Origin: Solirubrobacterales bacterium | Lineage (GTDB): Bacteria > Actinomycetota > Thermoleophilia > Solirubrobacterales > Solirubrobacteraceae | Assembly: GCA_025963965.1 (NCBI GenBank) | Contig: JAOPZS010000007.1 | Coordinates: forward strand, 1 to 61,320 | DNA: 61,320 nucleotides | Reading direction: 5' to 3' | Part shown: positions 29,448-56,475 of the stretch, in pieces | Layout: the number at the start of each line of letters is the position of its first letter | Position numbering within the stretch: position 1 is the stretch's first letter | Notes under the pieces: generated by a model | The model's database searches: none | Seen by the model: the letters and a program-made list of their open reading frames with translations, nothing else | What the model was told of the DNA's origin: nothing | Program-made: the position numbers and the translations under genes

Positions 29448-29474
29448 GGTTTACCGTCTTGCCGTGGCGGGTAC
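29448..29474 (+). promoter_or_regulatory. SigB/SigF-like promoter, GGTTTA-N15-GGGTAC
   Basis: GGTTTA (29448-29453) and GGGTAC (29469-29474) lie 42 bases before the start of the secreted hydrolase gene at 29516. It fits the SigB/SigF pattern seen repeatedly to the right. Confidence 0.6.
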
Positions 29475-29515
29475 CCGCGCCATGGGGCGGGGCTCGGGAC
29501 AGTCGGAGGATGAGG

Positions 29516-31024
29516 ATGCGGAAGGTCGGACGGGGGATGCTGGCGTTGACCGCGGCGATGGCGCTGATCGCGCCGGCAGGCGCGCAGGGCGCGCCGCCGA
29601 GCACGTTCGAACCGGTGCTCGAGGCGCAGAACTTCGCGATCACGCAGGAGCGCCAGGCGATCTACGACACACCGGAATACCAGGCGCGGCTCACCGAACA
29701 GAGCACGCTCAACCTGGTCGAAGCGGTGAGCGCGCAGGCAAGCGACCCGGGCCGGCTGTTCAGCGACGATCTGTGCTGGAACGGCGGCAACGGCTGCGCG
29801 GGTGACGTGCGCCTTTACGACTGGCAGAAGAACGGCTACGGCCTCGTGCAGAAGGTCCTGTTCACGGCACGCGACGGCGCGACGCTGTCGGGCCGCGTTT
29901 GGGAGACGAAAGCCGGCCCGAAGAAGCGGCCCGGGATCGTGATCACGAACGGCTCGGTACAGGCCGACGAACAGATGTACTGGTACGCCGCCCAGGCGCT
30001 CGCCAAGGACGGCTACGTCGTGCTCACGTTCGACCCGCAGGGCCAGGGGCAGAGCGACACGCCCGGTCAGGCCCCCGACGAAAACGAGGGCGTGCCGGCG
30101 CAGAGCGACGGCCGGCCCTTCTACGACGGAACCGAGGACGCGATCAACTTCCTGCTCTCCTCGCCAAAGCGCCCCTACGAGCCGGTGGCGAGCTGCGAAA
30201 CGGGGACGAGCCACGCGGCCAAGCAGGACGAACGCGTTGCCGCAGGGCTCGACGCCGCCTACAACCCGTTCTACAAGCAGCTGAATGCGTCGCAGATCGG
30301 GCTCGCGGGACACTCCTACGGCGCCGCCGGGGTCTCCTACATCGCACAGTGGGACCCGCGCGTGAAGGCCGTCGTCGCGTGGGACAACCTCGGCGGCCCC
30401 GGACCGGAAGCGGGCTCGGTGCCCAGCCAGCAGGGCGGCTCGCCTTCGAAAAGCGCGATCGGGGAGAAGCCGTGCCCGTCCGACCCGGGGGCGCGGACGG
30501 TCGTGCCGATCGCCAAGCCCGGCCTCGGCATCTCCGCCGACTATGGGCTGCCGCCCCTGCCGAACACCGGCCTGCCCGAATCGCTGGCGAAGTCAAGCGC
30601 CTCGCTGGCGTACAGTCGCGCCGGCGTCGACAGCGGTCAGATCATCATCCGCGGCGGCTCGCACCTGGACTTCAGCTTCATCCCGAACCAGGCGTTCGGC
30701 GCCTCCCTGCGCGGCCCCGATCTAATCGACTGGTACACGTCGGCCTGGTTCGACAAGTACGTCAAGCACAAGGGATCGGCCGACAAGCGGCTGCTCAGCG
30801 AACGCTGGCGCGCGGACCCGACGGAGGCCGCGATCGATCCGCGAGGCGACGGCAACGCCTTCTCCTTCTACTACCTCTCCCGTCTGGACATCCACCTGCA
30901 CAACGGCACGCGGTGGGACTGCGAGGAACTGCGCGAAGGATGCCCGGGGATGGTCAGGACGAGCCGTGACGGCTTCCCCGGCGCCTACTCCTACATGGCG
31001 ATCGACACAAGCCCGGACGGCTGA
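29516..31024 (+). CDS. Secreted alpha/beta-hydrolase
   Basis: A 502-residue exported protein. A signal sequence (MLALTAAMALIAPAGAQG) precedes an alpha/beta-hydrolase domain with nucleophile elbow GHSYG (Ser about 267) and the earlier oxyanion strand GIVITNGSV. The C-terminal SHLDF likely supplies the catalytic His. ATG 29516 is chosen because GGAGGA lies five bases upstream; ATG 29510 is too close to that site. Substrate is unknown. A SigB-type promoter precedes it, suggesting stress induction. Confidence 0.82.
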   Translation: MRKVGRGMLALTAAMALIAPAGAQGAPPSTFEPVLEAQNFAITQERQAIYDTPEYQARLTEQSTLNLVEAVSAQASDPGRLFSDDLCWNGGNGCAGDVRLYDWQKNGYGLVQKVLFTARDGATLSGRVWETKAGPKKRPGIVITNGSVQADEQMYWYAAQALAKDGYVVLTFDPQGQGQSDTPGQAPDENEGVPAQSDGRPFYDGTEDAINFLLSSPKRPYEPVASCETGTSHAAKQDERVAAGLDAAYNPFYKQLNASQIGLAGHSYGAAGVSYIAQWDPRVKAVVAWDNLGGPGPEAGSVPSQQGGSPSKSAIGEKPCPSDPGARTVVPIAKPGLGISADYGLPPLPNTGLPESLAKSSASLAYSRAGVDSGQIIIRGGSHLDFSFIPNQAFGASLRGPDLIDWYTSAWFDKYVKHKGSADKRLLSERWRADPTEAAIDPRGDGNAFSFYYLSRLDIHLHNGTRWDCEELREGCPGMVRTSRDGFPGAYSYMAIDTSPDG

Positions 31025-31034
31025 GCTGCGGCGC

Positions 31035-31556
31035 CTAGCCGTCGCGGCGCTGCTCGCGGCCGAGCGCCGCCGCGCGGCGCATCGGAATCGCGAACCACAG
31101 CGCGAGAAACGGGATCGAGCCCAGTCCCGCCGTGAGCACGCCGGCGCCCACTCCGAACAGCTTCGTCGTCACGAGCAGCATGCACCCGCACATCGCCAGC
31201 GCCAGGAAGGCCATGCCGGCGATCACGACACGGTTGGAGCTGAACACGAGGTGGCGCTTGTCGTCGTGACGGAACAGCCAGCGGTGCTGCGCCGAGGGCG
31301 CGATCGTGCAGACCGCCGACAGCGCGGCCAGCAGCAGCGTCACCAGATAGACGGTCCGCTCGAACGCACCGATGTGCGCGAAGCCGCTGTTGAACGGCAC
31401 GATCAACAGGAAGGCGAATAGCACCTGCACGCCGGTGACGACGACGCGCAGCTCCCCGGTCAGCTCCTCGAGGTTGCGGTCCAGCCGCTCGTGTTCGGTC
31501 TCACCGCGCCGGGCGTCGCCGCCCCGGAACCGCTGCGCCCGCTCGGACTCCGCCAT
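31035..31556 (-). CDS. DUF6328 membrane protein
   Basis: A 173-residue protein with four membrane segments. The N-terminal cytoplasmic part has HERLDRNLEELTGELRVVVTGVQ (in pieces), followed by LFAFLLIVPF, AFERTVYLVTLL and APSAQHRWLFRHDDK, which match DUF6328. Function is unknown. It lies six bases after the acidic 106-residue gene and is probably in the same transcript, driven by the SigB-type site at 31893. Confidence 0.78.
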   Translation of the reverse strand: MAESERAQRFRGGDARRGETEHERLDRNLEELTGELRVVVTGVQVLFAFLLIVPFNSGFAHIGAFERTVYLVTLLLAALSAVCTIAPSAQHRWLFRHDDKRHLVFSSNRVVIAGMAFLALAMCGCMLLVTTKLFGVGAGVLTAGLGSIPFLALWFAIPMRRAAALGREQRRDG

Positions 31557-31562
31557 CGGCCG

Positions 31563-31883
31563 CTACCCGGGCGAGGTCTCCTCGTCCTCCCGCTCGCTGC
31601 TGTGCTCGTGGTCAGCCTCGCCGTCGGCGCGGGCGGGGTCCGGCTCCTCCTCGACGCCCTGATGATGGAGGACGAAGTGGGCCGGCTGCTCATCGCCGTG
31701 CGAGGCGTGTTCGATCAGCAGCTCCTCGGCCTGCTCGAATCCCTCGGCCTCGCCGCCACCGGCCTCGCGCACGGGGCGCCCGGCGGGATCCCCGCCCGGG
31801 ACGGAAGCCGTCCCGCCGATCTGCGCGGCTTCTCGCGCCGCCTGCTCGGCCTGCTCGCGCTCCTCTGGTGTCTCTTCTTGCAT
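31563..31883 (-). CDS. Acidic small protein of unknown function
   Basis: A 106-residue, strongly acidic (Glu-rich) soluble protein with a central part EEFLLIEHASHGDEQPAHFVLHH-like; the actual core reads EELLIEHASHGDEQ and PAHFVLHHQG. The ends look disordered. ATG 31883 is preceded by GGAGG. It is not assigned to a family. Its promoter region is shared with the divergent F420-type oxidoreductase gene. Confidence 0.6.
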   Translation of the reverse strand: MQEETPEEREQAEQAAREAAQIGGTASVPGGDPAGRPVREAGGGEAEGFEQAEELLIEHASHGDEQPAHFVLHHQGVEEEPDPARADGEADHEHSSEREDEETSPG

Positions 31884-31892
31884 GCGTCCTCC

Positions 31893-31918
31893 CTACCCGC
31901 GCCCCTGACGGCATAACC
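31893..31918 (-). promoter_or_regulatory. SigB/SigF-like promoter, GGTTAT-N14-GGGTAG
   Basis: Minus-strand GGTTAT (31918-31913) and GGGTAG (31898-31893). The -10 ends nine bases before ATG 31883, and the Shine-Dalgarno lies within that gap, so the leader would be very short. The divergent site at 31974 drives the opposite gene. Confidence 0.45.
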
Positions 31919-31973
31919 GGTATGCACAGCGGCCACCGCGGGGGTGAGCCGCCTCCTGCGCGGCGCCCTGACG

Positions 31974-31998
31974 GGTTGAGCGCGTTGGGCGCGGGTAG
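31974..31998 (+). promoter_or_regulatory. SigB/SigF-like promoter, GGTTGA-N13-GGGTAG
   Basis: GGTTGA (31974-31979) and GGGTAG (31993-31998), 42 bases before the ATG of the F420-type oxidoreductase at 32041. Confidence 0.6.
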
Positions 31999-32040: not shown

Positions 32041-33039
32041 ATGAAGATCGGTTACTTCCTCTCCAGTGAGGAGTTCGCACCGAAGGAGCTCGTACGACAG
32101 GCGCGGATGGCCGAGGAAGCCGGCTTCGACGGACTGTGGATCTCTGACCACTTCCATCCATGGAACGACGAGCAGGGCCACAGCGGATTCGTCTGGTCGA
32201 CGATCGGCGCGCTCTCGGAGGCGACGTCGCGGATGAAGGTGACGAGCGCCGTGACGTGCCCGACCGTCCGCATCCACCCGGCGATCATCGCCCAGGCCGC
32301 GGCCACCTCCGCGCTCCTCCTGGAGGGACGATTCGTGCTCGGGCTCGGCAGCGGCGAGGCGCTGAACGAGCACATCCTCGGCGACCGCTGGCCCCAGGCC
32401 GATGAGCGCCTGGAGATGCTCGAGGAGGCGGTCGAGGTGATCCGCCTGCTCTGGCGCGGGGGCATGCAGAGCCATCGCGGCCGCCACTACACCGTGGAGA
32501 AAGCGCGCATCTACGATCTGCCGCGCGAGCCGCCGGCGATCCTGATCTCGGGCTTCGGCCCGAAGTCGACGCGGCTGGCGGCGAGGATCGGCGACGGTTT
32601 CTGCACCGTGGCGCCCGCCAAGGACGCGGTCGAGTCGTTTCGCAGCGAAGCTCATGCAGAGAAGCTCGTCGCCGGCGGCATGAAGGTCTGCCTCGGCCCC
32701 GACGAGGCCTCGGCGCGGGCGACGGCACACCGGCTGTGGCCGAACGAGTCGCTGCCCGGTGAGCTCTCCCAGATCCTGCCCACCCCGGCCCACTTCGAAC
32801 AGGCGGTCGAGCTCGTCAGCGAGGAGATGATCGGCGAGGAGCTGCCGTGCGGGCCGGACCTCGAGGCTCACTTCGAGCAGATCCGCAGGTACGAGGACGC
32901 CGGCTTCGACGAGCTCTACATCCAGCAGATCGGCCCCGAACAGGAGCGCTTCTTCGAGACATATGCCAACGAGGTGCTGCCACGCCTGAGCGAGGAGGCG
33001 CGGCGCGAGCCGGCGGCGTCGACGGGCAGCGCGTATTGA
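32041..33039 (+). CDS. F420-dependent LLM-class oxidoreductase (glucose-6-phosphate dehydrogenase-like)
   Basis: A 332-residue luciferase-like enzyme of the F420 glucose-6-phosphate dehydrogenase/TIGR03557 group: opening KIGYFLSSEEF, GLWISDHFHPWNDEQGHS, TCPTVRIHPA and LGLGSGEALNEHILG. It probably reduces F420 using a sugar or other small substrate. AAGGAGGT precedes ATG 32041. A SigB-type promoter lies upstream, and an HAD phosphatase gene follows after two bases, likely in one operon. Confidence 0.88.
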   Translation: MKIGYFLSSEEFAPKELVRQARMAEEAGFDGLWISDHFHPWNDEQGHSGFVWSTIGALSEATSRMKVTSAVTCPTVRIHPAIIAQAAATSALLLEGRFVLGLGSGEALNEHILGDRWPQADERLEMLEEAVEVIRLLWRGGMQSHRGRHYTVEKARIYDLPREPPAILISGFGPKSTRLAARIGDGFCTVAPAKDAVESFRSEAHAEKLVAGGMKVCLGPDEASARATAHRLWPNESLPGELSQILPTPAHFEQAVELVSEEMIGEELPCGPDLEAHFEQIRRYEDAGFDELYIQQIGPEQERFFETYANEVLPRLSEEARREPAASTGSAY

Positions 33040-33041
33040 CG

Positions 33042-33700: not shown

Positions 33701-34243
33701 CTAGCCGGGCAGCACGCCGCCGCCGGCGACGCCGGCGCCCGCACGCCCGGAGCTCTCGCCGAGCTCCTCAGCGTCGTGGTGCTCGGCGAGCCGCGCCGCC
33801 GCGGCCGGCACCACGACGACCGGGCAGGAGGCGTCGCTGACGACCTGCTGGCCGGTCGACCAGGGCATCTTCCCTGCGAGCTTGCCCGAGCGCCCGCCGA
33901 TCACGAGCATGTCGGCGCCCTCGGCTGCCTCGAGCAGCACGCGGTGCGGCGAGCCGCGCATTGCCCGGCGCTCGATCTCGATGGCGCCCCTCGAGATCTC
34001 CCGGAGCGCGAGGTCGAGCACCGCCTCGGCATCGGCGCGGTGCTCCTGCAGGGTCCGGGCCGAGGCCGGCGGGCGACCTCCCGGCCCTCCGATCGCGGCG
34101 GCGCTCGGCCGCCACGCGATCACCGCCTCGAGGCGCGCGCCATGGCGCCGCGCCTCCCCGGCCGCCCAGTGAAGGGCGGCGACGGAGGGGCTCGAGCCGT
34201 CTACGCCGACGACTATGCGCTGTCGCTGGGGGCTCGTGCTCAT
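33701..34243 (-). CDS. Universal stress protein (UspA)
   Basis: A 180-residue single Usp domain. The start IVVGVDGSSPS and the nucleotide-binding end GGRSGKLAGKMPWSTGQQV and CPVVVVP are typical. The C-terminal 30 residues are a Gly/Ala-rich tail. ATG 34243 overlaps the qcrB stop (ATGA), making it the last gene of the respiratory operon. Such coupling would set its level by respiratory-chain expression. Confidence 0.88.
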   Translation of the reverse strand: MSTSPQRQRIVVGVDGSSPSVAALHWAAGEARRHGARLEAVIAWRPSAAAIGGPGGRPPASARTLQEHRADAEAVLDLALREISRGAIEIERRAMRGSPHRVLLEAAEGADMLVIGGRSGKLAGKMPWSTGQQVVSDASCPVVVVPAAAARLAEHHDAEELGESSGRAGAGVAGGGVLPG

Positions 34244-35670
34244 GTGCTTCCTCCGTGATCGCTCGCTTCGCTGATCGTGCTACCCGCGTCGACCGGCGCA
34301 AAACCGCCGGATGCGTCGCGTGCGACGATCCGCCCCGACCAGCCGCGCAGCGGATGCTCGCGTTCGACGGCCAGCTCCAGGCAGATTCTGCGCGTGATCA
34401 CGAAGACGGCCACCGGTATGGCGAGGAACGCGCCGCGGAAGAACCAGATCGCGCCTTCGTAGCCGAAGCCGAACTGGAAGAACATACGGTCGGCCGAGCC
34501 CGCCGCGAAGACGATCGCGACGGCGGAGAAGACGGCGGCTGCGAGTGCCGTGCGCCGCGGATTTTCCCGCGGGCTCTGAAGCAGGTCATGGCGCGCGGGG
34601 TCCCGCGAGATGAAGCGGCGGTCGAGCCACGGCAGCGCGTAGAGCAGCGCGAACACGACGGTCGGGAACAACACGCCGCCGAAGAACGGGTTGGGGACGA
34701 GCGTGTGCCCGAACACCGAGATCTCGAGGTTGGGCATCAGCCGGAGCGCTCCGATCAGCCAGCCCAGATACCAGTCGGGCTGCGCGCCGTTGGTGCCGAG
34801 GTACGGGTGGTACGGGCCCCACAGCCACACCGGGTTGATCTGGATCAGTCCCCCCATCAACACGAGCACCGCGGCGACGGCCGCGAACAGCCCGAGCGAG
34901 CGAAGCGCGTAGGCGGGCCACATCGGCGTGCCCACGACGTTGTCCTCGCGGCGGCCAGGGCCCGGGAACTGTGAATGGCGCTGGCGCATGATGATCGCGA
35001 GGTGCACGGCGATCAGCGTGGCCAGGATCGCCGGCAGCACGAAGACGTGGGCGATGTAGAGGCGCGACTCGAAGACGCTCGTTCCAGGGAAGCGCCCGCC
35101 CCAGAGCGCCGTCGCGAACGGCCCGCCGATGAGCGGCAGCGACATCGCCACCGCCCAGGCGATCGCCAAGCCCATCCCCGACAGCAGGTCGTCCGGCAGC
35201 GAGTACCCGGCGAAGCCCTCGAGGATCGCCAGTGCCAGCAGCGTCACGCCGATGAAGTAGTTGATGTCGCGCGGCTTTCGAAACGCCCCCGTGAAGACGA
35301 TCCGCAGCAGATGCAGCGTGATCGCCGCCAGGAACAGGAGCGCCGCCCAGTGGTGGGTCTGGCGCATCAGCAGCCCACCGGAGACGTGGTAGGACAGTTT
35401 CAGCGTCGAGGCGTAAGCGCTCGAGATGCTCTGGCCCTGTAGCGCCGGGTCGCTCCCGTGGTAGACGGCCGTGCCGAGGTCGGGGCTGAAGAACAGCGCC
35501 AGGAACGTGCCAGTGGCGATCAGCACGACGAACGCGTAGAGCGCGACCTCGCCGAGCAGGAAGCTCCAGTGGTCCGGGAACACGTAGCTCATCAGGAAGC
35601 GGAGCCCGCGCGCGCCGCCGAGGCGCTCCTCGACGAACTCGACCGGGTCTCGCGCGCTGCGCCGGCTCAC
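34240..35670 (-). CDS. qcrB: Cytochrome bc1 complex cytochrome b subunit
   Basis: A 476-residue membrane protein of the actinobacterial bc1 complex. Heme ligands are visible in QTHHW (His106/107) with His120, and in LYIAHVF (His208) with His223. The quinol-site region and the downstream GAQPDWYLGWLIGALRLMP segment are conserved. It passes electrons from menaquinol to the Rieske protein and hemes. GTG 35670 overlaps the Rieske stop (GTGA). In-frame sequence upstream is shadow. Confidence 0.93.
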   Translation of the reverse strand: MSRRSARDPVEFVEERLGGARGLRFLMSYVFPDHWSFLLGEVALYAFVVLIATGTFLALFFSPDLGTAVYHGSDPALQGQSISSAYASTLKLSYHVSGGLLMRQTHHWAALLFLAAITLHLLRIVFTGAFRKPRDINYFIGVTLLALAILEGFAGYSLPDDLLSGMGLAIAWAVAMSLPLIGGPFATALWGGRFPGTSVFESRLYIAHVFVLPAILATLIAVHLAIIMRQRHSQFPGPGRREDNVVGTPMWPAYALRSLGLFAAVAAVLVLMGGLIQINPVWLWGPYHPYLGTNGAQPDWYLGWLIGALRLMPNLEISVFGHTLVPNPFFGGVLFPTVVFALLYALPWLDRRFISRDPARHDLLQSPRENPRRTALAAAVFSAVAIVFAAGSADRMFFQFGFGYEGAIWFFRGAFLAIPVAVFVITRRICLELAVEREHPLRGWSGRIVARDASGGFAPVDAGSTISEASDHGGST

Positions 35671-36653
35671 CGCGCGTCTCCCCACCAGGACGGGCCGACC
35701 GGCCCCGACAGCGGCCCGGCGGCGCGCAGCGTCCCCTGCGCGTCGATGCTCAGTGGCAACTGCGGCAGCGGACGCCCCGCCGGGCCGAATTCCACCCGCC
35801 CGGAGTCGAGCACGTCGAAAGTCGAGTAATGGCAGGGGCAGACCAGGGCCGGGCCACGCGACTGCGTCGAGGGGCTGAGCGGCGCTCGATACAGCGAGAT
35901 CGCGCAGGCCGCATGGGTGCATATCTTCGAGTAGGCGAGGATTCCCATCGGCGCCCAGCCCGCGCGCTCGGAGGAGGCCCGCAGCGAAGCGGGGTCGACG
36001 CGCACGAGCACCACCGGCGCGTCCAGATTCTCCTTGTCGGCCCCCTCGGGGAACGCCGTCACGAAGCTCCCTTCGCGGATCGCTGCGGCGGCGAGCGGCG
36101 CGCCCTGCTCGTCGACGAGCGCGCGGCCGGCGTGCCACGGCGTGCGCGAGAGCTGGTCCTCGATTCCCGGGCCGAGCGCGACCACGGGCACAGCGACCGC
36201 GGCTGTCAGACCGGCCCCGGCAGCGCCGGCGGCGCCCAGCAGCAGCCCTCGCCGGGTGATCCCATCCGTGGCCGCGTGCGCCTGCTCGAGGACCTCATCG
36301 ACGGCCTGCCGATCGCCGGGGATCGGGCGCTCCTCCACCTTCGTCTCCTGGGGCAGGAGCCGCTTGCCGGCCAGGATCAGCGCCGCCGCGAGCAGCGCCA
36401 GCGCCGCGCCCAAAGCCAGGCCGAGCAGCTGCGTGTTCGGATCCAGGATGTAGAGGACGGCAAACGCGGCGCACGACAGTGGGATCGCCGCCAGCAGCCC
36501 GAGCAGCGTTCGCTCGACCCATGCCGGAGAGCCCGCGTCGCGGCGGGACGGATCGACCTCGCGACGCCGGGCGCGGGCGCGGCGCCGGGGCCGCAGCGCA
36601 CCCCAGGCCCAGAGCACGAGCACCACCAGCGCCTTCCAGAGCCGGCTAGCCAT
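35667..36653 (-). CDS. qcrA: Cytochrome bc1 complex Rieske iron-sulfur subunit
   Basis: A 328-residue protein with several N-terminal membrane segments and a twin-Arg helix ITRRGLLLGAAG, typical of actinobacterial QcrA. The 2Fe-2S ligands are Cys245/His247 in CTHAAC and Cys272/His275 in CPCHYSTF, with Cys250 and Cys274 for the disulfide. The usual Gly in CTHxGC is Ala here, which could shift redox potential. ATG 36653 overlaps the qcrC end by eight bases. Confidence 0.93.
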   Translation of the reverse strand: MASRLWKALVVLVLWAWGALRPRRRARARRREVDPSRRDAGSPAWVERTLLGLLAAIPLSCAAFAVLYILDPNTQLLGLALGAALALLAAALILAGKRLLPQETKVEERPIPGDRQAVDEVLEQAHAATDGITRRGLLLGAAGAAGAGLTAAVAVPVVALGPGIEDQLSRTPWHAGRALVDEQGAPLAAAAIREGSFVTAFPEGADKENLDAPVVLVRVDPASLRASSERAGWAPMGILAYSKICTHAACAISLYRAPLSPSTQSRGPALVCPCHYSTFDVLDSGRVEFGPAGRPLPQLPLSIDAQGTLRAAGPLSGPVGPSWWGDAR

Positions 36654-37440
36654 GGTGGGTCTCACGCTCCTCGGGATCGTCCTCGCGGCGCTCTCCGATC
36701 ACCCGGGCGACCAGCAGCAGAGCCGCCGCGCCGAGCAGCCACGCGACCATCCCCTCGGGGATCGGCCCGATCCGCCCGATCCCCCAGCCGCCGCGGTTTT
36801 CCGGGTGCTGGAGATACTGGACGTAGCGCGCGAGCGAGTCGAGCTGCGCCGCGGAGATCTCGGCTTCTCCAAAGCGCGGCATCACGTACGGCCCGACCCG
36901 CACCGCCTCGCCGACCTGCCGCGGCGAGGCCTGGTTCAGCGACGGGGCGATCGCGCCTGTCACGATCCCGCCCTGCCCCTGGATCGTGTGACAGCCGGCG
37001 CAGTCGAGGGCGAACAGGCGCTCACCGTCGGCGAGCGAGCCGCGCCCGGGCTGCACGTCGGGAACGGCCGGTCCGCCGAACGAGGCGACGTAGGCGACCA
37101 GCGCACGGATCTGGCGCTGGGGAAACGCCGGGCGGGTACGCAGCGGCTCCGCGCGCGAGGCGGACAGCGGCATCCGCCCGGTCTGCAGGTAGAAGTCGGC
37201 GGCAAGAGCGCCGACTCCGCGCAGGCTCGGCCCGCGTCCGTGTATCCCGCCCGCGCCGATGCCGTGACAGGCGGAGCACGAGGATTCGAACAGCGCGCGG
37301 CCGCTCGCCACGAGCGAAGCGCTCGACACGGCCGGCGGCGCCGCCGCCGCCGCATGACCTCGTTCGTCTGCCAGCGCGAGCTGCACGATGGCCAGCCCGC
37401 CGCAGAGCGCCGCCGCGAGCGCTGCCAGGCGGCGCCTCAT
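36646..37440 (-). CDS. qcrC: Cytochrome bc1 complex diheme cytochrome c subunit
   Basis: A 264-residue diheme cytochrome c. Heme-binding CSACH (55-59) and CAGCH (147-151) sit in two tandem cytochrome c domains between an N-terminal export helix and a C-terminal anchor (MVAWLLGAAALLLVARVIG). It links the bc1 complex directly to the aa3 oxidase, as in other actinobacteria without soluble cytochrome c. ATG 37440 overlaps the ctaG-like stop. Confidence 0.93.
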   Translation of the reverse strand: MRRRLAALAAALCGGLAIVQLALADERGHAAAAAPPAVSSASLVASGRALFESSCSACHGIGAGGIHGRGPSLRGVGALAADFYLQTGRMPLSASRAEPLRTRPAFPQRQIRALVAYVASFGGPAVPDVQPGRGSLADGERLFALDCAGCHTIQGQGGIVTGAIAPSLNQASPRQVGEAVRVGPYVMPRFGEAEISAAQLDSLARYVQYLQHPENRGGWGIGRIGPIPEGMVAWLLGAAALLLVARVIGERREDDPEERETHHG

Positions 37441-38300
37441 CCCCGCGCCGCCGGCGCCGGCTCGGCTGTGGCGTCCGCGTAGCGTTCGCGGCGCTCGGCT
37501 CGTCGCTCTTCGGCGAGCATCGCTCCGAAGGTGACGAGCAGCGCCAGAGCGAACATCGCGAGAGTCCCTCCGACCCACATGATTGCCCCCCCGAGCTGCT
37601 GGTCGGCCAGCGCGGAGCGGTCGAGTGCGTGGCTCGTCAGGAGGTAGTGGGGGTAGCGCACGGTTCGCGCGAACGCCAGCAGCGCCCCGGGCACGGCCAT
37701 CGCCGTCATGCCCCCCATCAGCCATGCGAAGCGAGCGAGCGGCGCCGGCGGATGCGGCAGCGGGTCGGCTGAGACCAGAGGCGCCAGGAACGCCAGTCCG
37801 GTCCAGAACATCGCGGCGTGCTCGAGCGCGTGCACGGACGGGTCGGTGAGGGCCAGCTCGAACAGCCCCGTCAGGTGGGTCACGAGCACCGTCGCAGCGA
37901 ACAGCGCGAGGCCGACTGCGGGCTGAGCGATGGTCCGTGCGGGGCCGCTCGACAGCGCTCCGCCGAGCGCCCCGCGCACGCGCGGTCCTGCGGCTCGAAG
38001 TGCGAGACCGACCGGCCTTCCCCACAGCAGCAGTACGGGCGCCAGCAGCGAGAGCAGCAGGTGCTGGACCATGTGAACCGACAGCAGCTCCTCGGCGTAG
38101 CCGTCGATGCCCGAGAGCAGCGCCAGCGCGATCGTGGCGAGCCCCGCCAAAAAGGAAGCAGCGCGCCATGCCGGCCAGCGGGCGCCGGCTCGCACGGCGC
38201 CGAGCCCGTAGAGCCCCGCCGCGGCCAGGAGCGACGCGACCACGACCGGGTCGAAGCTCCACGAGCCCAGCAGGCGCGCGAGCGTCGGCGCGGCGGTCAC
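37437..38300 (-). CDS. Cytochrome c oxidase assembly protein, CtaG (caa3) type
   Basis: A 287-residue membrane protein with about seven helices. The conserved HMVQHLLLSLLAPVLLLWG, LEHAAMFWTGL and DQQLGGAIMWVGG segments match the caa3_CtaG/PF09678 family, which assists oxidase assembly and copper handling. GTG 38300 overlaps the stop of the 132-residue gene upstream. It links the oxidase and bc1 halves of the operon. Confidence 0.88.
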   Translation of the reverse strand: MTAAPTLARLLGSWSFDPVVVASLLAAAGLYGLGAVRAGARWPAWRAASFLAGLATIALALLSGIDGYAEELLSVHMVQHLLLSLLAPVLLLWGRPVGLALRAAGPRVRGALGGALSSGPARTIAQPAVGLALFAATVLVTHLTGLFELALTDPSVHALEHAAMFWTGLAFLAPLVSADPLPHPPAPLARFAWLMGGMTAMAVPGALLAFARTVRYPHYLLTSHALDRSALADQQLGGAIMWVGGTLAMFALALLVTFGAMLAEERRAERRERYADATAEPAPAARG

Positions 38301-38695
38301 GGCGCGCCCCCGAGACGACGGGTGCGCCGCCGCGCACGTGCTTCGCGCAGCAGGCCACCGGCGCCGAGTGCCGTGACGCCGGCGCCGACCAGGATCAGCC
38401 ACAGCCCGAAGCCGGCCCCGAGCAGCGCGAGCGCAAGACCCGCGGCCAGCGTGGCCGCGGCGAGCGACTGGTCGGGCAGCGCTCGCGGACGCTCGACCGC
38501 AGCGCGGCGGAGGTCGAGCCGCCACAGGCCCAGCCCTGTGAGCAGGCACGCTGCGGCCGCGCCTCCCAGCAGCTCGTACTCGATCGGGTGCAGCCCGACC
38601 GAGCGCGGGCGCACCGGCGCGAAGGCGAGCTGGGCGGCGGTCAGCACTGCAAGCCATGCGCCCCAGCCGAGCAGCACCACCGCGGCGCGCCTCAT
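38297..38695 (-). CDS. Small membrane protein between oxidase subunit I and CtaG
   Basis: A 132-residue protein with four hydrophobic segments and a basic C-terminus (REARARRRTRRL). ATG 38695 overlaps the ctaD stop and its own stop overlaps the next GTG. It is too short to be a normal subunit III and resembles none clearly. Position suggests an oxidase subunit or assembly factor, possibly a subunit IV-like protein. Confidence 0.65.
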   Translation of the reverse strand: MRRAAVVLLGWGAWLAVLTAAQLAFAPVRPRSVGLHPIEYELLGGAAAACLLTGLGLWRLDLRRAAVERPRALPDQSLAAATLAAGLALALLGAGFGLWLILVGAGVTALGAGGLLREARARRRTRRLGGAP

Positions 38696-40299
38696 GCCGG
38701 CGCCCCTGCCTCGGCGGCCTGTTCGCGCAGATCGAGCAGCGGCGCGTGCGATCCGATCGGCGGCAGCGCCTCGAAGTTGTAGCGGGGCGGCGGCGAGCTG
38801 GTCGCCCACTCCAGGGTGTGTCCCTGCCAGGGGTCGTCTCCCGCCGGGCGGCGCGCGCGCAGCGAGATGACGACGTTGAGGATGAACACGGCGACCGCCA
38901 GCGCGATCACGCCCGAGCCGATCGTCGAGAGCACGTTCAGCGTCCGCCAGTGAGTGCTCGACGGGTACGCCGCGATCCGGCGCACCATCCCCTCGGCGCC
39001 GAGCGCGAACATCGGGAAGAACGTGAGGTTCGTGCCCACCACGAGCAGCGCGAAGTGGAGCTTGCCGAGGCCTTCGCGCAGCATCACGCCGGTTGCCTTT
39101 CCGAACCACAGGTAGATGCCGGCGAACAGGCCGAAGGCGCTGCCGGCGAAGATCGTGTAGTGGAAGTGCGCCACCACGAAGTAGGTCATGTTGAGGTGGT
39201 AGTCCAGTGGCGGCGAGGCGACGATGATCCCCGTCAGCCCGCCGATCAGGAACTGGACGATGAACGCGACGGCGAACAGGAACGGCGTCGTGAAGCGCAG
39301 GCTCCCCCGCCACAGCGTGCCGAGGAAGTCGAGGTACTCGATCCCGGCAGGGACGATCAGCAGGGTCGAGGTCAGCGCGAAGTACTTGTTGGTGACCTGC
39401 CCCATCGTGAACATGTGGTGGCCCCAGACGCTCATCGAGAGCCCGGCGAAGGCCAGCAGCGCCACCACGAAGGCGCGGTACCCGAAGAAGCGCCTGCCGG
39501 AGAACGTCGACAGCGACTCGGCGACCATGCCGACGAACGGGAAGAACATCACGTACACGACGGGGTGCCCGTAGAACCAGAACAGCTGCTGGTAGTCGAC
39601 CGCGCCGAGGCCGCCCGACAGGACTCCGCCGAAATGCCGCTGTGCCCAGAGCAGCACCAGCGCCAGGATCAGCGCCGGAAACGCGAACAGGGTCAACAGG
39701 CAGGTGACGACCATCGTCCACGTGAAGACGGGCATGCGCAGCAACGTCATGCCCGGTGCGCGCTTGCGCAGCGCCGTGCCGAGCACGCATCCCGCCCACA
39801 GCAGCTGCCCCCCCGTCGCCATCATCACGCCGAGGATCCAGAGTTCCATGCCGCTGCCGGGCGAGTGGATCGAGTCGGAGAGGGGGTCGAACCCCCACCA
39901 GGAGGCGGCAGCGGCGCCGCCGCTGGTCAGGAACCCCGCCCACATCGTCACGCCTCCGAGCAGCAGCAGCCACAGCCCGGCCAGCGCAGCGCGCGGTCCG
40001 GCGATCTCGGCGGCGCCGACCTGCAACGGCACGAGGTAGACGCCGGCCGCCAGCCCGATCGGAACGATGAACAGGTACACCATCGTCGAGCCGTGCATCG
40101 TGAACAGCTGGTCGTAGACGTTCTGGGAGACGACGCCGCCGTCGGCGGCGAGCTGGCTGCGCATCACGAGCGCCAGCAGGCCACCGGCCAGGAAGAACCC
40201 GAACGCGGCGAGGGCCGCCTGCGCGGCGATGCGCTTGTGATCGGTCGAGGCGAGCGTGCGCAGCGGCGCCGCTCGCAGCGGCAGCGCGGTCACGCTCAT
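38692..40299 (-). CDS. ctaD: Cytochrome c oxidase subunit I
   Basis: A 535-residue heme-copper oxidase subunit. Metal ligands are visible: His69 (MHGSTM) for heme a, His245 with Tyr249 (YGHPVVY) and His294/His295 (WGHHMF) for CuB, and His378/His380 (VAHFHY) for heme a3 and heme a. It reduces oxygen to water at the membrane. No fused subunit III is present. It overlaps subunit II upstream and the small membrane gene downstream by ATGA. Confidence 0.95.
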   Translation of the reverse strand: MSVTALPLRAAPLRTLASTDHKRIAAQAALAAFGFFLAGGLLALVMRSQLAADGGVVSQNVYDQLFTMHGSTMVYLFIVPIGLAAGVYLVPLQVGAAEIAGPRAALAGLWLLLLGGVTMWAGFLTSGGAAAASWWGFDPLSDSIHSPGSGMELWILGVMMATGGQLLWAGCVLGTALRKRAPGMTLLRMPVFTWTMVVTCLLTLFAFPALILALVLLWAQRHFGGVLSGGLGAVDYQQLFWFYGHPVVYVMFFPFVGMVAESLSTFSGRRFFGYRAFVVALLAFAGLSMSVWGHHMFTMGQVTNKYFALTSTLLIVPAGIEYLDFLGTLWRGSLRFTTPFLFAVAFIVQFLIGGLTGIIVASPPLDYHLNMTYFVVAHFHYTIFAGSAFGLFAGIYLWFGKATGVMLREGLGKLHFALLVVGTNLTFFPMFALGAEGMVRRIAAYPSSTHWRTLNVLSTIGSGVIALAVAVFILNVVISLRARRPAGDDPWQGHTLEWATSSPPPRYNFEALPPIGSHAPLLDLREQAAEAGAPA

Positions 40300-40943
40300 G
40301 TCGTGCTCCCGGCATCGCTCGGCGGCGGGCTCTGCGCGGATTCGAGCCAGCTCTCGTATTCCGTCCGGCTGACGGCGCGCAGCTCGAAGTGCATCTCGGT
40401 GTGCTGTTCACCGCAGTACACCGAGCAGGCGCCTCCGTAGGCTCCCGGCCGGTCGAAGCGCATGTCGAAGCGTGTCACGTAGCCAGGCAGGAACTGGCGC
40501 TGGAAGCGCAGCCTCGGCACGTAGAAGCCGTGGATCACGTCGCGGGAGCTGCCCCAGAATTCGACCTCCTGCCCGGCCGGGACCTCGGCTACGGGAGGGC
40601 GCAGCGTCGAGACGGAGAGCACCGTCTTGCCGCCCGGGTACTCAAAGCGCCAGCTCCACTGCGCAGCGGTGACGTGGATCCGCAGGACCGGGTTGGCGGC
40701 GACCGTGTCCAGCGGCGTCTCGGCGTGGAACGTGACGGCGAGCAGAAACGCAACGACGGCCGCCAGGCCGGCGGCGTACACCACCTCGAAGCGCGTCGCC
40801 TCCGTCTTGCCACCCGCGGCGCGCCGTCTGGCACCGGCGAGCAGCAGCGCCGCCAGCGTCAGGACGATGAACGCGAACACCCCGATCGCGATCGGGAAGT
40901 AGATCCCGCTCACGTGTTCGTAGGCGTGCAGCGGGTCGGCCAT
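40296..40943 (-). CDS. ctaC: Cytochrome c oxidase subunit II
   Basis: A 215-residue subunit with two N-terminal membrane helices and a CuA domain. The CuA ligands are His138, Cys173, Cys177, His181 and Met184 in CSVYCGEQHTEM. It accepts electrons from the QcrC hemes. It has no evident signal peptide before helix one and no fused cytochrome c. It is the first gene of the respiratory operon. Confidence 0.94.
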   Translation of the reverse strand: MADPLHAYEHVSGIYFPIAIGVFAFIVLTLAALLLAGARRRAAGGKTEATRFEVVYAAGLAAVVAFLLAVTFHAETPLDTVAANPVLRIHVTAAQWSWRFEYPGGKTVLSVSTLRPPVAEVPAGQEVEFWGSSRDVIHGFYVPRLRFQRQFLPGYVTRFDMRFDRPGAYGGACSVYCGEQHTEMHFELRAVSRTEYESWLESAQSPPPSDAGSTT

Positions 40944-41248: not shown

Positions 41249-41274
41249 CTACCCCGACCGGTCTCGCCCAAACG
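41249..41274 (-). promoter_or_regulatory. SigB/SigF-like promoter, CGTTTG-N14-GGGTAG
   Basis: Minus-strand CGTTTG (41274-41269) and GGGTAG (41254-41249), upstream of the 74-residue membrane protein gene and pointing toward the cta/qcr operon. Confidence 0.55.
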
Positions 41275-41835: not shown

Positions 41836-41860
41836 CTACCCGCCGCGGGCGAGGACAACC
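41836..41860 (-). promoter_or_regulatory. SigB/SigF-like promoter, GGTTGT-N13-GGGTAG
   Basis: Minus-strand GGTTGT (41860-41855) and GGGTAG (41841-41836), 33 bases before the ATG of the ferritin-like gene. Confidence 0.6.
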
Positions 41861-41870
41861 CGTCCGCCAC

Positions 41871-43417: not shown

Positions 43418-43443
43418 CTACCCCGCGTCTGCCCGAGTCAAGC
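43418..43443 (-). promoter_or_regulatory. SigB/SigF-like promoter, GCTTGA-N14-GGGTAG
   Basis: Minus-strand GCTTGA (43443-43438) and GGGTAG (43423-43418), 59 bases before the MFS start. It faces away from the topoisomerase promoter at 43471. Confidence 0.5.
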
Positions 43444-43470
43444 GGGGGCGCTCCGCTGATGGACCCGCCC

Positions 43471-43496
43471 GGTTTGCCCACCGCGGCCAGGGGTAC
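43471..43496 (+). promoter_or_regulatory. SigB/SigF-like promoter, GGTTTG-N14-GGGTAC
   Basis: GGTTTG (43471-43476) and GGGTAC (43491-43496), the best match to the shared motif. It precedes the topoisomerase IB gene by about 100 bases and is divergent from the MFS promoter. Confidence 0.65.
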
Positions 43497-44716: not shown

Positions 44717-44742
44717 CGTTTGCCCCTCGCGCTCACGGGTAC
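44717..44742 (+). promoter_or_regulatory. SigB/SigF-like promoter, CGTTTG-N14-GGGTAC
   Basis: CGTTTG (44717-44722) and GGGTAC (44737-44742), 31 bases before the PfpI gene start. Confidence 0.65.
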
Positions 44743-45364: not shown

Positions 45365-45395
45365 CGTCCGATCGCTGACCGGGCGGCGCCGATGT

Positions 45396-45422
45396 GCTTG
45401 CATCGCGCGCCGTCCGGGGTAC
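45396..45422 (+). promoter_or_regulatory. SigB/SigF-like promoter, GCTTGC-N15-GGGTAC, before the sigma gene
   Basis: GCTTGC (45396-45401) and GGGTAC (45417-45422), upstream of the SigB/SigF-type gene. This would make the sigma factor autoregulated. Confidence 0.5.
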
Positions 45423-45517: not shown

Positions 45518-46450
45518 GTGCGTGGCCGTCACTCCCTCAGTGGGGCAGAACAGGCAGACCTACGCAGGGTCCGGGCGCCGTACGCGCCACTCACGCTGCT
45601 AACCGGCGAGAAACATCTGAAGCGCGGGCGCCGGCGGGGGCCCGCGGAGGAGGGTGAGGCCGTCCCGGGCCTGCTCTCCCACCGCCCAGCCGTGACGCGG
45701 CCGATCGGAGCGCCCTCGATCGAGGAGCTGTTCACGCGGCTGCGCGAGCGCCAGGACCTGGCGGCGCGCGACGCGCTGGCGACGATGTTCCTTCCGCTCG
45801 CCCGCCGCCTGGCGCAGCGATACGTGCGCTCGTCGGAGCCTCGCGAGGACCTCGTTCAGGTGGCCAGCCTGGGGCTGATGAAGGCGATCGACCGCTTCGA
45901 TCCTGCGCGCGGCCACAACTTCGCGTCCTACGCGATCCCGACGATCCTCGGTGAGCTGCGCCGGTACTTCCGCGACGCGACATGGTCGGTTCACGTGCCC
46001 CGTGGGGCGCAGGAGCGGGCCGCCGCGATCGAAGCCGCCCAGGAGGAGCTGATGGGCGATCGCCGTGCGGCGCCGACGATCGACGCGATCGCCGAGTACC
46101 TGCAGATCAGCGGCGAGGAGGTGCTCGACGGGATGCTCGCGGTGCGCGCCTACGAAGCAGACTCGCTCGACGCCCCCGCGGCGATGAGCGATGACGGCGA
46201 GGGGCGCACGGCGCTGGAGCAGATCGGCGTCGAGGAGGACCGCTACGAGCTCGTGCTCGCGGACGCGAGCGTCACGCCGGCGATCCGCGAGCTCGACGAC
46301 CGCGACCGGCGCGTGCTGCACATGCGCTTCGTCGGCGAAATGAGCCAGAGCGAGATCGCCGCGAAGATCGGGGTCTCGCAGATGCAGGTCTCGCGGATCC
46401 TCGCACGCTCGCTGATGCAGTTGCGCGAGCTGGCCGGCCCGCGCGACTGA
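45518..46450 (+). CDS. SigB/SigF/SigG-type RNA polymerase sigma factor
   Basis: Up to 310 residues. Region 2 has FLPLARRLAQRYVRSSEPREDLVQVASLGLMKAIDRFDP (in pieces: LVQVASLGLMKAI), region 3 ERAAAIEAAQEEL and PTIDAIAEYL, region 4 LDDRDRRVLHMRFVGEMSQSEIA and VSQMQVSRILARSL. This domain plan is the SigB/SigF general-stress class. The N-terminal 58 residues from GTG 45518 are atypical; GTG 45692 (252 residues) gives the normal family length but lacks a clear Shine-Dalgarno. It is convergent with an STAS gene five bases away. No RsbW-type anti-sigma kinase is in the window. Confidence 0.9.
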   Translation: MRGRHSLSGAEQADLRRVRAPYAPLTLLTGEKHLKRGRRRGPAEEGEAVPGLLSHRPAVTRPIGAPSIEELFTRLRERQDLAARDALATMFLPLARRLAQRYVRSSEPREDLVQVASLGLMKAIDRFDPARGHNFASYAIPTILGELRRYFRDATWSVHVPRGAQERAAAIEAAQEELMGDRRAAPTIDAIAEYLQISGEEVLDGMLAVRAYEADSLDAPAAMSDDGEGRTALEQIGVEEDRYELVLADASVTPAIRELDDRDRRVLHMRFVGEMSQSEIAAKIGVSQMQVSRILARSLMQLRELAGPRD

Positions 46451-46455: not shown

Positions 46456-46818
46456 CTACCCGCCGCCGCCGCCGGCCGGCGCGCCTCGGCCTCCGTCGGC
46501 AAACGGCAGCACGCCGTCGAGGCCGGTGACCTCGAACAGCCGCTGCACCGAGGGAGGCCCGGGAACGATCTCGAAGCGATGGCCGTGCTTGTCGCACAGA
46601 CCGCTGACGTGGACGATCGCGGCGAGCCCGGTCGAGTCGATGAAGCTCAGGTCGCTGAGGTCGAGCGTGACGCTGGTCGGGTCGGAGGCGCAGATCCGGT
46701 TCACGAGCGCTTCCACCGAGGGCACGCCCGCCATGTCGAGCTCCCCGCGCAATCTCAGCGTGTGATCACCGCCGTCCTGCACATCCTCGATGTCGACTCC
46801 GGTGGATCGCGCGTTCAT
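46456..46818 (-). CDS. STAS-domain anti-sigma factor antagonist
   Basis: A 120-residue SpoIIAA/RsbV-like protein. The phosphorylatable serine is in FIDSTGL (Asp61, Ser62, Thr63, Gly64). Unphosphorylated antagonists bind the anti-sigma kinase and free the sigma factor. ATG 46818 follows GGGAG. It lies tail-to-tail with the SigB/SigF-type gene, strongly suggesting the same partner-switching pathway. The C-terminal Gly-rich tail is unusual. Confidence 0.9.
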   Translation of the reverse strand: MNARSTGVDIEDVQDGGDHTLRLRGELDMAGVPSVEALVNRICASDPTSVTLDLSDLSFIDSTGLAAIVHVSGLCDKHGHRFEIVPGPPSVQRLFEVTGLDGVLPFADGGRGAPAGGGGG

Positions 46819-47944: not shown

Positions 47945-47969
47945 GTACCCGCGCAGCAGGATGCAAACC
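47945..47969 (-). promoter_or_regulatory. SigB/SigF-like promoter, GGTTTG-N13-GGGTAC
   Basis: Minus-strand GGTTTG (47969-47964) and GGGTAC (47950-47945), upstream of the DUF892/histone-tail gene. It supports GTG 47910 as that gene's start. Confidence 0.65.
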
Positions 47970-47971
47970 GG

Positions 47972-54400: not shown

Positions 54401-54410
54401 GGCGCGGGTG

Positions 54411-54446: not shown

Positions 54447-54469
54447 GTTCTTCCTCGCGGTGCGTGCCG

Positions 54470-56344
54470 CTACGGCGCGACCGGCAGCTGCACGTAGGAG
54501 TTGTGAGCGCCGCCATGCAGCATCGTGATCGTCCCGCCGAGCTCCTGCCCGAGCGTCGGCAGCGTCGGCAGGCCGGTGAACGTGTTCGCCGTGCCGATCG
54601 TCAGGCGCAGCCGGTCGCCGGCCTTGACGATCGCGCCGGTCGGGTAGATCTCGATGCTGTATTCGGTCGCCTGGCCCGGGGTGACGGCCTGCTGGCTTTC
54701 TTTCGTGAACGGGTGCCATGGCCTCGTCACGACGTGTTTCGGCCCGTAGGTCTGCCGGCTGGGATCGAGCGCGCGCAGGCTCGCCTGCAGGAAGCCCGCG
54801 GTGATCTGGTTCGATTTCCCGCTCGGTTCGACGTCGCTGAGCACTGCCACGAGCGTCCCGTCGGTCGTGGTGAGGCTGGCCCACAGGTTCGCCGTGATCA
54901 GACCGGCGATCTTCGTGGCCCCGGGGAGCGCCGGGGAGGTGTAGGTCAGCGAGCTCGCCTCGTAGGTGTTGTTGGACGTGTCACAGACCGGGTTCGAGGC
55001 GATCCCGGCGGTCCACTGCGCGGTCTCGCGCGAGCATGGGCTCGAGGCGGGCAGCAGCGGCGCGGTGTCGCCCGCTTCACTCGCCGGCGGCGTGCTCGCA
55101 AGCGAGCCGTCGTGCGCCGAGAGGGGCGCCGAGCCTGAGGATTCGCCGGTCAGGTACAGGCGCTGGTACTTCGTCTTCGGCAGCGGGAAGCGCTTGTAGT
55201 GCTCCCAGTGCGTGCCGTTGATCGGGTAGAGGTTGACCTTTGGCGTCTTCTGCACGTTGTTCTTCGTCCCCTTCAGCCAGTGGCCGAACCAGTCTTCCTT
55301 GATGTTCGGGTTTTCGTAGGGAGGGGCTTCGGTGATGTGGTAGTGGGGTGACATGAACAGCACGCGGTCCTTGGAGTTCTTCAGCGCTTCCCACAGCAGC
55401 GGCTCGCCGCGCTGGAACAGGTCCCACCAGCCGCCGGTGATCACCACCGGCACGGTGATTTCCGCGGCCCGCTCGACGGGTGAGCGCAACCGGTAGAAGG
55501 GGCCGTCGTAGGCGGCTTCTTCGCCGAGCGACGCGCCGAGGATGTGCACGCCGCTGAATTCGGCGTTGCCGAGCAGGTGTTCGACGTACACGGCCGCCGC
55601 TTCCTGCGGGTTTGCCGACGTCGAGGACGGCGGCATGTCGGACAGGGCACTGACGAGCCCGAGCCACAGGGGGATGAACCCGGAGTCGACGGAGCCCCCC
55701 TGGAAGGTGACGTCGCGGTAGGCGTCGGCCATCGGGATGTCTGCCCAGACGGCCTGCACGGCGCGCGGCTTGCCTTCCTTGACGCGTGCCGCGTCGGCCT
55801 CGGCGATCAGCAGCGAGGTGATCCCCATGTAGGACTGGCCGGTCGTCGCGACGCCGCCGTTCGACCAGGGCTGCGCCTGGATCCAGTCGAGCGCCTCCTT
55901 GTAGTCCTGCTGGGTGCGTTCTCCCCACGATTCCCACTTGCCGGCGCTCGCGCCTGTGCCGCGGTCGTCGAGCACCATCACGGCGAAGCCCTTTTCGGCG
56001 AGGGCGGGATCGGCTGAGGAGATGCCCTGCGAGCCCGCGCAGTCCTGGCCGGTCGGGTTCCCGGCATCCTTGTTGTAGCCCGTCGCGGTGAGCACGGTCG
56101 GGAAGTGCCCTGTGGCGGCCGGGAGATACACGTTCCCGCGCAGCACGACGCCGTCGCTCATCGTGATCGGGACGTTGCACATGGCGACGGTGGCGCCGGC
56201 CGTCGGAGCGCACAGCCCGATCGCCATCAGCGCCAGCGCCGCCGCAGCGGCGATGCCCGAAGCGCGGGTGCGGGCGCGAAGCCCTCTTCTCGAGTCCCCC
56301 GCCCGCAGCTGCGGGCGCTCGGCAAGGTCAGGCTGACGGTCCAT
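54470..56344 (-). CDS. Exported CocE/NonD-family hydrolase (X-Pro dipeptidyl-peptidase-like)
   Basis: A 624-residue serine hydrolase of the S15/CocE group. A signal sequence (about 27-50) is followed by the hydrolase domain with FPTVLTATGYNKD, DDRGTGASAG and nucleophile Ser171 in TTGQSYMG. A C-terminal jelly-roll domain contains RPWHPFTKES and GDRLRLTIG. It cleaves acyl or peptide-like substrates outside the cell. ATG 56344 follows GAGGAG. A SigB-like promoter lies about 100 bases upstream. Confidence 0.88.
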   Translation of the reverse strand: MDRQPDLAERPQLRAGDSRRGLRARTRASGIAAAAALALMAIGLCAPTAGATVAMCNVPITMSDGVVLRGNVYLPAATGHFPTVLTATGYNKDAGNPTGQDCAGSQGISSADPALAEKGFAVMVLDDRGTGASAGKWESWGERTQQDYKEALDWIQAQPWSNGGVATTGQSYMGITSLLIAEADAARVKEGKPRAVQAVWADIPMADAYRDVTFQGGSVDSGFIPLWLGLVSALSDMPPSSTSANPQEAAAVYVEHLLGNAEFSGVHILGASLGEEAAYDGPFYRLRSPVERAAEITVPVVITGGWWDLFQRGEPLLWEALKNSKDRVLFMSPHYHITEAPPYENPNIKEDWFGHWLKGTKNNVQKTPKVNLYPINGTHWEHYKRFPLPKTKYQRLYLTGESSGSAPLSAHDGSLASTPPASEAGDTAPLLPASSPCSRETAQWTAGIASNPVCDTSNNTYEASSLTYTSPALPGATKIAGLITANLWASLTTTDGTLVAVLSDVEPSGKSNQITAGFLQASLRALDPSRQTYGPKHVVTRPWHPFTKESQQAVTPGQATEYSIEIYPTGAIVKAGDRLRLTIGTANTFTGLPTLPTLGQELGGTITMLHGGAHNSYVQLPVAP

Positions 56345-56448
56345 GGACGCTCCTCGGTCGTGCGACGGCAATGAAAAGGTGCCACCGCCCCCGGTGGCGA
56401 GAGATTTTCCCCCGAGAAGGCCGCCAGGACCTTCGCGCGCGGGTAGGG

Positions 56449-56475
56449 ATACCCGGGCCGCGCGCGCGGCAAACC
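56449..56475 (-). promoter_or_regulatory. SigB/SigF-like promoter, GGTTTG-N15-GGGTAT
   Basis: Minus-strand GGTTTG (56475-56470) and GGGTAT (56454-56449), upstream of the CocE/NonD hydrolase gene. Both boxes match the classic SigB/SigF consensus. Confidence 0.6.

Follow-up and report, generated by a model that had tools for sequence, protein, structure and literature searches.

In Bacillus subtilis, the sigma factor SigB is controlled by partner switching. Its promoter is given as GTTTAA-N15(+/-2)-GGGTAT (PMC9847131; this and the other papers below are cited from part of their text), and in Streptomyces coelicolor several SigB homologues read overlapping promoters of the GTTT/GGGTA type (PMC8346170). 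In Mycobacterium smegmatis, the stretch MSMEG_1758-1804, which ends with sigF itself (MSMEG_1804), includes many genes that depend on SigF and have boxes of the GTTT and GGGTA types; targets near sigF include a type I topoisomerase (MSMEG_1784) and an RsbW protein (MSMEG_1787), and the antagonist gene rsfA (MSMEG_1786) has no SigF site (PMC4694148). The SigF regulon of the same species is induced when the aa3 oxidase is lost (PMC7693655). Here, we analysed contig JAOPZS010000007.1 (C114) of a Solirubrobacterales bacterium (assembly GCA_025963965.1), whose entire length of 61,320 bases forms our window, and describe eleven sites resembling SigB/SigF promoters that cluster around a SigB-type sigma factor gene (W54), with a twelfth lying apart. 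We consider it highly probable that this is a chromosomal stress island, with about a dozen units each behind a SigB/SigF-type promoter, which a sigma factor freed by stress would read together.

Twelve sites and the genes behind them

The window makes up ~2% of a draft assembly (3.03 Mb in 147 contigs, 89.7% complete), and 70 genes (W01-W70) were called in it with a simple codon model. All twelve sites that the initial annotation had reported, eleven between 29 and 57 kb and one at 16.9 kb, are present: GGGTA begins at 29469, 31993, 43491 and 44737 on the plus strand and at 16894, 31898, 34285, 41254, 41841, 43423, 47950 and 56454 on the minus strand (single motif coordinates are those of the first base of GGGTA, in window numbering). 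The literal pattern proposed for them, SSTTK-N13-15-GGGTAB, holds for eight of the twelve and not for the other four, three of which have a 16-base gap and one an A at the fifth base; it also matches twice inside genes (23400 and 54622, both plus strand).

To score sites, we built a matrix from these twelve, which are its training set, so that their own scores are circular. In the window, the twelve score at least 15.4 and the next-best position 12.5. Leave-one-out scores range from 12.9 to 19.8, the lowest being that of 43423, a level that a 400 kb control reaches 20 times. The first 16 kb, judged by eye to be empty, indeed hold no site scoring at least 13 (positions 1-16800), and neither does the right end (57500-61320). 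The comparison of intergenic with shuffled DNA that the initial annotation had suggested was run on the intergenic pieces of the window, and the densities proved unequal: joined, the pieces contain 9 matches of at least 15, against a mean of 0.07 and a maximum of 1 in 200 dinucleotide shuffles. The mirrored window gave 0 matrix hits against 12, and for the published M. smegmatis consensus GTTT-N14-19-GGGTA the counts were 8 and 0, respectively; the Bacillales consensus KTTTW-N12-17-GGGWAW, as quoted in PMC9847131, has zero matches in the window. Across the whole genome, GTTT-N14-16-GGGTA matches 29 times (reversed control, 8), and 8 of these 29 fall in the window, where 0.59 would be expected (P ~8e-8). 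Eleven sites lie within 27 kb, with W54 inside that stretch. The sites are thus clustered, as had been claimed, and their likeness to SigB/SigF promoters, which extends to both boxes and the spacing, appears sound.

Each site is followed, within 300 bases on its strand, by a called start. GGGTA is intergenic, that is, between called genes, at all sites except 34285, which lies within the end of the cytochrome b gene W42. The refined distance from GGGTA to the start is 15-110 bases at eleven sites and 209 at 16894.

At the left of the cluster, GGTTTA-N15-GGGTAC (29448..29474, +) precedes the alpha/beta hydrolase gene W36 (29516-31024), whose product has a signal-like N-terminus by eye. GGTTAT-N14-GGGTAG (31893..31918, -) stands 15 bases from the start of W38 (31563-31883), which is followed by W37 (DUF6328, 31035-31556), and GGGTTG-N14-GGGTAG (31973..31998, +) is upstream of the F420-dependent oxidoreductase W39 (32041-33039) and then the HAD hydrolase W40 (33042-33695). 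The site inside the end of W42, GGTTTT-N14-GGGTAG (34280..34305, -), precedes the universal stress protein gene W41 (33701-34243). CGTTTG-N14-GGGTAG (41249..41274, -) is 15 bases from the start of W49 (41015-41239), which encodes a small membrane-type protein. Sites 15-19 bases before called starts, seen here at 41254 and 31898 (-), also occur in L097, L098, L221 and L226 among the loci of other genomes described below, and nearly leaderless transcripts are predicted from this spacing.

The ferritin-family gene W50 (41287-41802), whose product matches Dps models below their cut-offs, lies behind GGGTTG-N14-GGGTAG (41836..41861, -), and the MFS transporter gene W51 (41871-43358) behind CGCTTG-N15-GGGTAG (43418..43444, -). 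GGTTTG-N14-GGGTAC (43471..43496, +) is upstream of the topoisomerase IB gene W52 (PF01028; 43579..44646, +), which encodes 355 residues from GTG 43579 (ATG 43600 is the other candidate start). The called ATG 43771 is probably internal, because alignments with relatives begin at residues 2-26 of the longer form; with the earlier start, the distance from GGGTA falls from 280 to 88 bases. The DJ-1/PfpI gene W53 (44774-45364) follows CGTTTG-N14-GGGTAC (44717..44742, +), and the DUF892 gene W56 (47071-47910) follows GGTTTG-N13-GGGTAC (47945..47969, -). The rightmost site, GGTTTG-N15-GGGTAT (56449..56475, -), is upstream of the CocE/NonD-family hydrolase gene W65 (54470-56344, from ATG 56344), with a hydrophobic N-terminal stretch by eye. 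The outlying GGTTTC-N15-GGGTAT (16889..16915, -) lies 209 bases before ATG 16685 of the ABC substrate-binding protein gene W17, an uncertain candidate target whose sugar-type assignment relies on matches below cut-off; the -35 side of this site runs into the start of a divergent gene call with a weak score. Ahead of the island, a run of genes at 22631-26741 (-) encodes an extracytoplasmic function (ECF)-type sigma factor, a zinc-finger-like anti-sigma factor, a TatA-like protein and proteins whose N-termini are Tat-type or hydrophobic (by eye); no SigB-type site scoring at least 13 was found in it.

The motif and the gene set in relatives

The regulon gathered with a sigma gene recurs in relatives, and the sigma gene is not in reach of every island. 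Among 55 genomes in which a SigB-type sigma factor was detected (our own included), GTTTG-N13-15-GGGTA occurs 281 times against 146 for the reversed motif; in six genomes without a detected SigB-type sigma factor the counts were 18 and 16. We then scored sigma-anchored, topoisomerase IB/PfpI-anchored and control loci from relatives, all outside the training set of the matrix. The 20 sigma-anchored loci hold 25 sites scoring at least 15 (mirror, 3), 24 of them intergenic, where intergenic DNA makes up 18% of the bases. The 20 topoisomerase IB/PfpI-anchored loci, chosen by gene and not by site (some nearby matches were already known, two of them in G016 C10, L220-L221), also hold 25 (mirror, 2; 20 intergenic), and the 20 control loci hold 10 (mirror, 4).

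We next divided the loci by content, according to whether a SigB-type sigma gene was present and whether at least one of seven island genes was; the control stretch L242, which has an island-type gene and accounts for 3 of the 10 control hits, was not counted. Loci with both had 35 sites of at least 15 in 308 kb (16 loci; mirror, 1), or 11.3 per 100 kb. Island genes without sigma gave 7.7 per 100 kb (18 sites in 235 kb, 16 loci; mirror, 1), sigma without island genes 5.0 (10 sites in 201 kb, 11 loci; mirror, 3), and control loci with neither 1.8 (7 sites in 380 kb, 19 loci; mirror, 4). Sites are plentiful in a group of four sigma-less loci from the genus (L220, L222, L226 and L227; together 11 sites in 60 kb), L227 contributing none of the 11 and having the tail of a sigma gene at its contig end. 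We also considered that the motif follows the target genes more than the sigma gene and dropped this idea: the density is highest with both, and the 9 of 20 topoisomerase IB/PfpI loci that include a sigma gene hold 19 of the 25 strong sites.

A de novo search for dyads ranked GTT..GGGTA third of 2020 in L220-L227, where GGGTA was the top 5-mer, fourth of 12214 when these were pooled with the sigma-anchored loci, and joint first of 3357 in ten loci picked with their sites known (L225 and L227, having none, were omitted). At individual genes in other genomes, PfpI has a site of at least 15 on the coding strand within 450 bases at 7 of 28 places, and orthologues of other members also carry sites: DUF892 in G015, W37 in G012, W38 in G029 and ferritin in G031. 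An oxidase control in the same upstream test gave 0 of 28 on the coding strand and 0 on the opposite strand; this control is weak, its places being mostly inside operons, and the 22-locus test described in the next section is better.

The genes themselves are linked. At 12 of 27 places, against 0.69 expected, a SigB-type sigma gene is found within 15 kb of topoisomerase IB; the count is 7 of 28 for PfpI and, for the oxidase control, 0 of 34 among the matches listed. Topoisomerase IB and PfpI are within 30 kb of each other at 9 of 27 places. These counts use the listed sigma matches minus our own window copy and 9 weak rows (E >1e-26), and are lower bounds owing to contig ends. The order of members varies, and topoisomerase IB, PfpI, HAD hydrolase, ferritin, sigma and STAS genes recur together. 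Elsewhere in the phylum, 5 of 20 topoisomerase-anchored stretches include a SigB-type sigma gene; the sample comprised 20 of 42 genomes with topoisomerase IB, taken from the best-scoring outside the family, with G097 and G176 passed over.

In other genera, G031 and G035 have, close together, at least two sigma genes, STAS genes, PfpI, a HAD hydrolase, topoisomerase IB and a Ku-like protein (by eye). Ku-like and LigD-polymerase-like proteins, recognized by eye from their N-termini, are found near PfpI and topoisomerase IB in L223 (12519-13442), L225 (3293-4129 and 12749-13618) and L227 (9308-9616), which suggests that end-joining repair is part of the island in other genera. A hydrophobic protein of 56-57 residues containing LLWLIGFF recurs near sigma/PfpI genes in L087 (8327-8500, -), L100 (8900-9070, -), L220 (4973-5146, -) and L226 (2491-2661, +); its site reads GGGCAT in L087 and L100 and GGGTAG in L220.

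The alternative oxidase operon

Behind the site at 41254 lies a respiratory operon, W48-W42 (34240..40943, -), which by Pfam encodes COX2, COX1, a small protein, CtaG, cytochrome c, Rieske/QcrA and cytochrome b. W49 is on the operon strand directly before it and ends 71 bases from W48, and a simple scan of this gap found no terminator-like site. The operon is probably read from the 41254 site by predicted read-through past W49.

This oxidase was found in six other genomes of 60 searched (59-78% identity). With a site of at least 10.5 within 1.5 kb upstream as the measure, three of the six relatives had one (G046, 15.9; G014, 13.4; G004, 13.4), compared with none of 22 other oxidase loci (Fisher 0.006; the thresholds were set after looking, and the numbers are small). 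G011, G016 and G026 had no such site within that distance. When we followed the operon up to its first gene, a site of 16.1 appeared in G016 and a weak one of 10.7 in G011, bringing the count to five of six; in both, another gene lies between the site and COX2.

The acting sigma factor, rival explanations and known systems

The initial annotation had placed a SigB/SigF-family sigma factor and its STAS antagonist in the middle of the island, and both assignments hold, each protein scoring above the cut-off of its family model. W54 (45692..46450, +; predicted start GTG 45692) matches TIGR02980, the SigB/SigF/SigG subfamily, with 261 bits (cut-off, 234), and its best solved relative is a sigma factor, chain 8x6g_H; in the tree it is a divergent paralogue. 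W55 (46456..46818, -), convergent with it, matches TIGR00377 with 68 bits (cut-off, 53), and its superfamily is that of the anti-sigma-factor antagonists. Its DNA encodes IDSTGL, which we take to be the usual motif of the phosphorylated serine. A weak SigB-like site, TGCTTG-N16-GGGTAC (45395..45422, +; score 10.05), precedes W54, and strong ones lie ahead of sigma genes in G011 (16.0) and G023 (17.9).

The genome holds three SigB-type sigma genes: W54 on C114, C128:42031 and C28:15653. The C128 gene adjoins two RsbW-type kinase matches and a STAS gene whose product is 37.9% identical to W55; across the genome there are 16 HATPase_c_2 kinase matches, none of them on the window contig. We built a tree of 35 sigma factors, the best from each of 30 genomes and five others, and used only two of its groupings, as bootstrapping had yet to converge and 17 inner branches were open. 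The C128 sigma and those of 11 other genus members form a 12-row clade (98/97). Outside this clade fall the best matches from seven further genus members and also W54, which pairs only with G020 C134 (99/87). The SigB-type sigma factors likely overlap in promoter specificity, because all 11 aligned sequences keep SQM.VSR in region 4.2, and as is reported for S. coelicolor (PMC8346170). In G014 and G012 (genomes 83-84% complete), only the C128 type was detected and the motif still outnumbers its reversed form (18 against 1 and 14 against 3, respectively). Of the cluster's supposed 'own sigma gene', then, the position within the cluster stands; that W54 reads the sites is unproven, because there are three SigB-type sigma factors, the contig of W54 has no kinase match and two relatives in which only the C128 type was detected keep the motif.

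In the proposed mechanism, a SigB/SigF-type promoter (GGTTTG-like, N13-15, GGGTA) would drive each of roughly a dozen transcription units, 11 of which lie at 29-57 kb. Stress would free a SigB-type sigma factor from an RsbW-type kinase through partner switching via STAS proteins, and holoenzyme carrying the freed factor would transcribe the units jointly. The predicted products would protect DNA (ferritin family, topoisomerase IB), serve protein or glycation repair (PfpI) and transport, and include F420 redox enzymes, small membrane proteins, and universal stress and DUF892 proteins; read-through from 41254 would probably add an alternative cytochrome bc/oxidase branch. We infer that the sites are read mainly by the C128 sigma, which has its kinases next to it, and that W54 may be an extra paralogue of overlapping specificity.

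Several observations weigh against this picture. The motif excess is uneven, and many single genomes show none. Across the order, 11 sigma-less topoisomerase IB/PfpI loci hold 6 sites of at least 15 in 155 kb, and 8 of the 20 topoisomerase IB/PfpI loci have no site of even 13. Strong sites stand on the strand opposite PfpI at 5 of 28 places, which we would ascribe, as a guess, to divergent neighbours; for topoisomerase IB, sites of at least 15 occur at only 2 of 27 places on the coding strand and at 2 on the opposite one. In the de novo search of all 20 sigma-anchored loci, GTT..GGGTA ranked 268 of 8085 (p 0.024). The oxidase operon of G026 is without a site and that of G011 has the weak one only. 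Finally, the comparison stretches from our own genome were partly selected for holding matches, which reduces the contrast.

It is hardly credible, and we reject it, that the resemblance reflects chance in G+C-rich DNA and selective reading by eye. The core, GGGTA, is indeed short and the matrix derives from these very sites, but the shuffles, the mirrored window, the published consensus and the leave-one-out scores speak against chance, as do the sites at orthologues in genomes outside the training. Nor is it at all likely that the GGGTA sites belong to another regulator with a similar element, such as an ECF sigma factor or a repressor. The window does encode other regulators, for example a PAS-LuxR protein; however, both boxes and their spacing match the published SigB/SigF consensi, and the motif excess is absent from the six genomes, a small set, without a detected SigB-type sigma factor.

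Two further explanations deserve more weight. The promoters could be of the SigB type while the members of a moving gene set lie together through co-inheritance, with no benefit from proximity, an account compatible with a stress island and one to which we give a substantial chance, not far below even. Variable order with recurring membership favours it, as does patchy presence (PfpI in 26 and topoisomerase IB in 27 of 61 genomes, our own included); the window, however, has no marked shift in composition, and the linkage of topoisomerase IB to a SigB-type sigma gene reaches, as noted, elsewhere in the phylum. Alternatively, W54 could be a dedicated, autoregulated reader of the island with W55 as its switch, which we regard as possible and would not favour. 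Its gene lies mid-island beside the STAS gene, the weak site precedes it, its nearest tree relative (G020) likewise has a sub-consensus upstream site (13.9), and across relatives the motif is densest where sigma and island genes co-occur. Against this role, in addition to the missing HATPase_c_2 match on the contig and the motif excess in G014 and G012, the islands of G014 and G015 surround a C128-type sigma gene, and G016 C10 has island genes and sites without a W54 homologue among the genes called over the 32 kb read.

A jointly read stress island thus remains our preferred explanation. A broader proposal, which we put forward tentatively and hold to be somewhat less probable than its opposite, is that the island is one instance of a SigB-driven module that recurs and has a respiratory switch as one of its parts: the general stress sigma factor would activate a spare cytochrome bc/CtaG-type oxidase branch along with repair and DNA-protecting proteins. 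Such a module (topoisomerase IB, PfpI, HAD hydrolase, ferritin, SigB-type sigma and STAS, with Ku-like proteins in some genera) would be old in the phylum and joined by promoters and sigma factor, not by gene order. If this is true, stressed cells would rebuild their electron transport chain. The testable link that it raises between a stress sigma factor and an alternative respiratory chain is, to us, the most interesting part. Overall, the analysis provides a candidate general stress regulon, defined from sequence alone, in a lineage on which our literature search yielded little, and makes topoisomerase IB and PfpI candidate core members. In that search, the match for Solirubrobacter and SigB concerned rhizosphere communities, and Thermoleophilia went unmentioned in the papers listed for SigB-type stress responses, which is not proof of absence; nothing was found linking topoisomerase IB, SigF and Mycobacterium.

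Compared with the described systems, the -35 box here is GGTTTG-like, unlike that of B. subtilis (PMC9847131). S. coelicolor has nine SigB paralogues, whereas three were detected here, and the part of that paper cited does not mention clustering around a sigma gene (PMC8346170). In M. smegmatis, too, a SigF-type response is tied to the respiratory chain; there, however, the oxidase defect is the signal (PMC7693655), whereas in our window an alternative oxidase operon seems to be a target. Its sigF is co-transcribed with an RsbW gene, in contrast to the window sigma, whose contig has no kinase match; 'ferritin' occurs nowhere in that study, and a DNA-protecting protein, MSMEG_6467, is targeted elsewhere in the genome (PMC4694148). 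The likenesses are close: SigF-type sites cluster around the sigma gene, a topoisomerase is among the targets, and tabulated values of 8-11, taken as the distance to the start codon, resemble the nearly leaderless sites of the window (PMC4694148). By analogy, M. smegmatis, where a clustered SigF-type regulon is already known, is a close precedent for this island, and our results suggest that clustering of this kind recurs in other members of the phylum.

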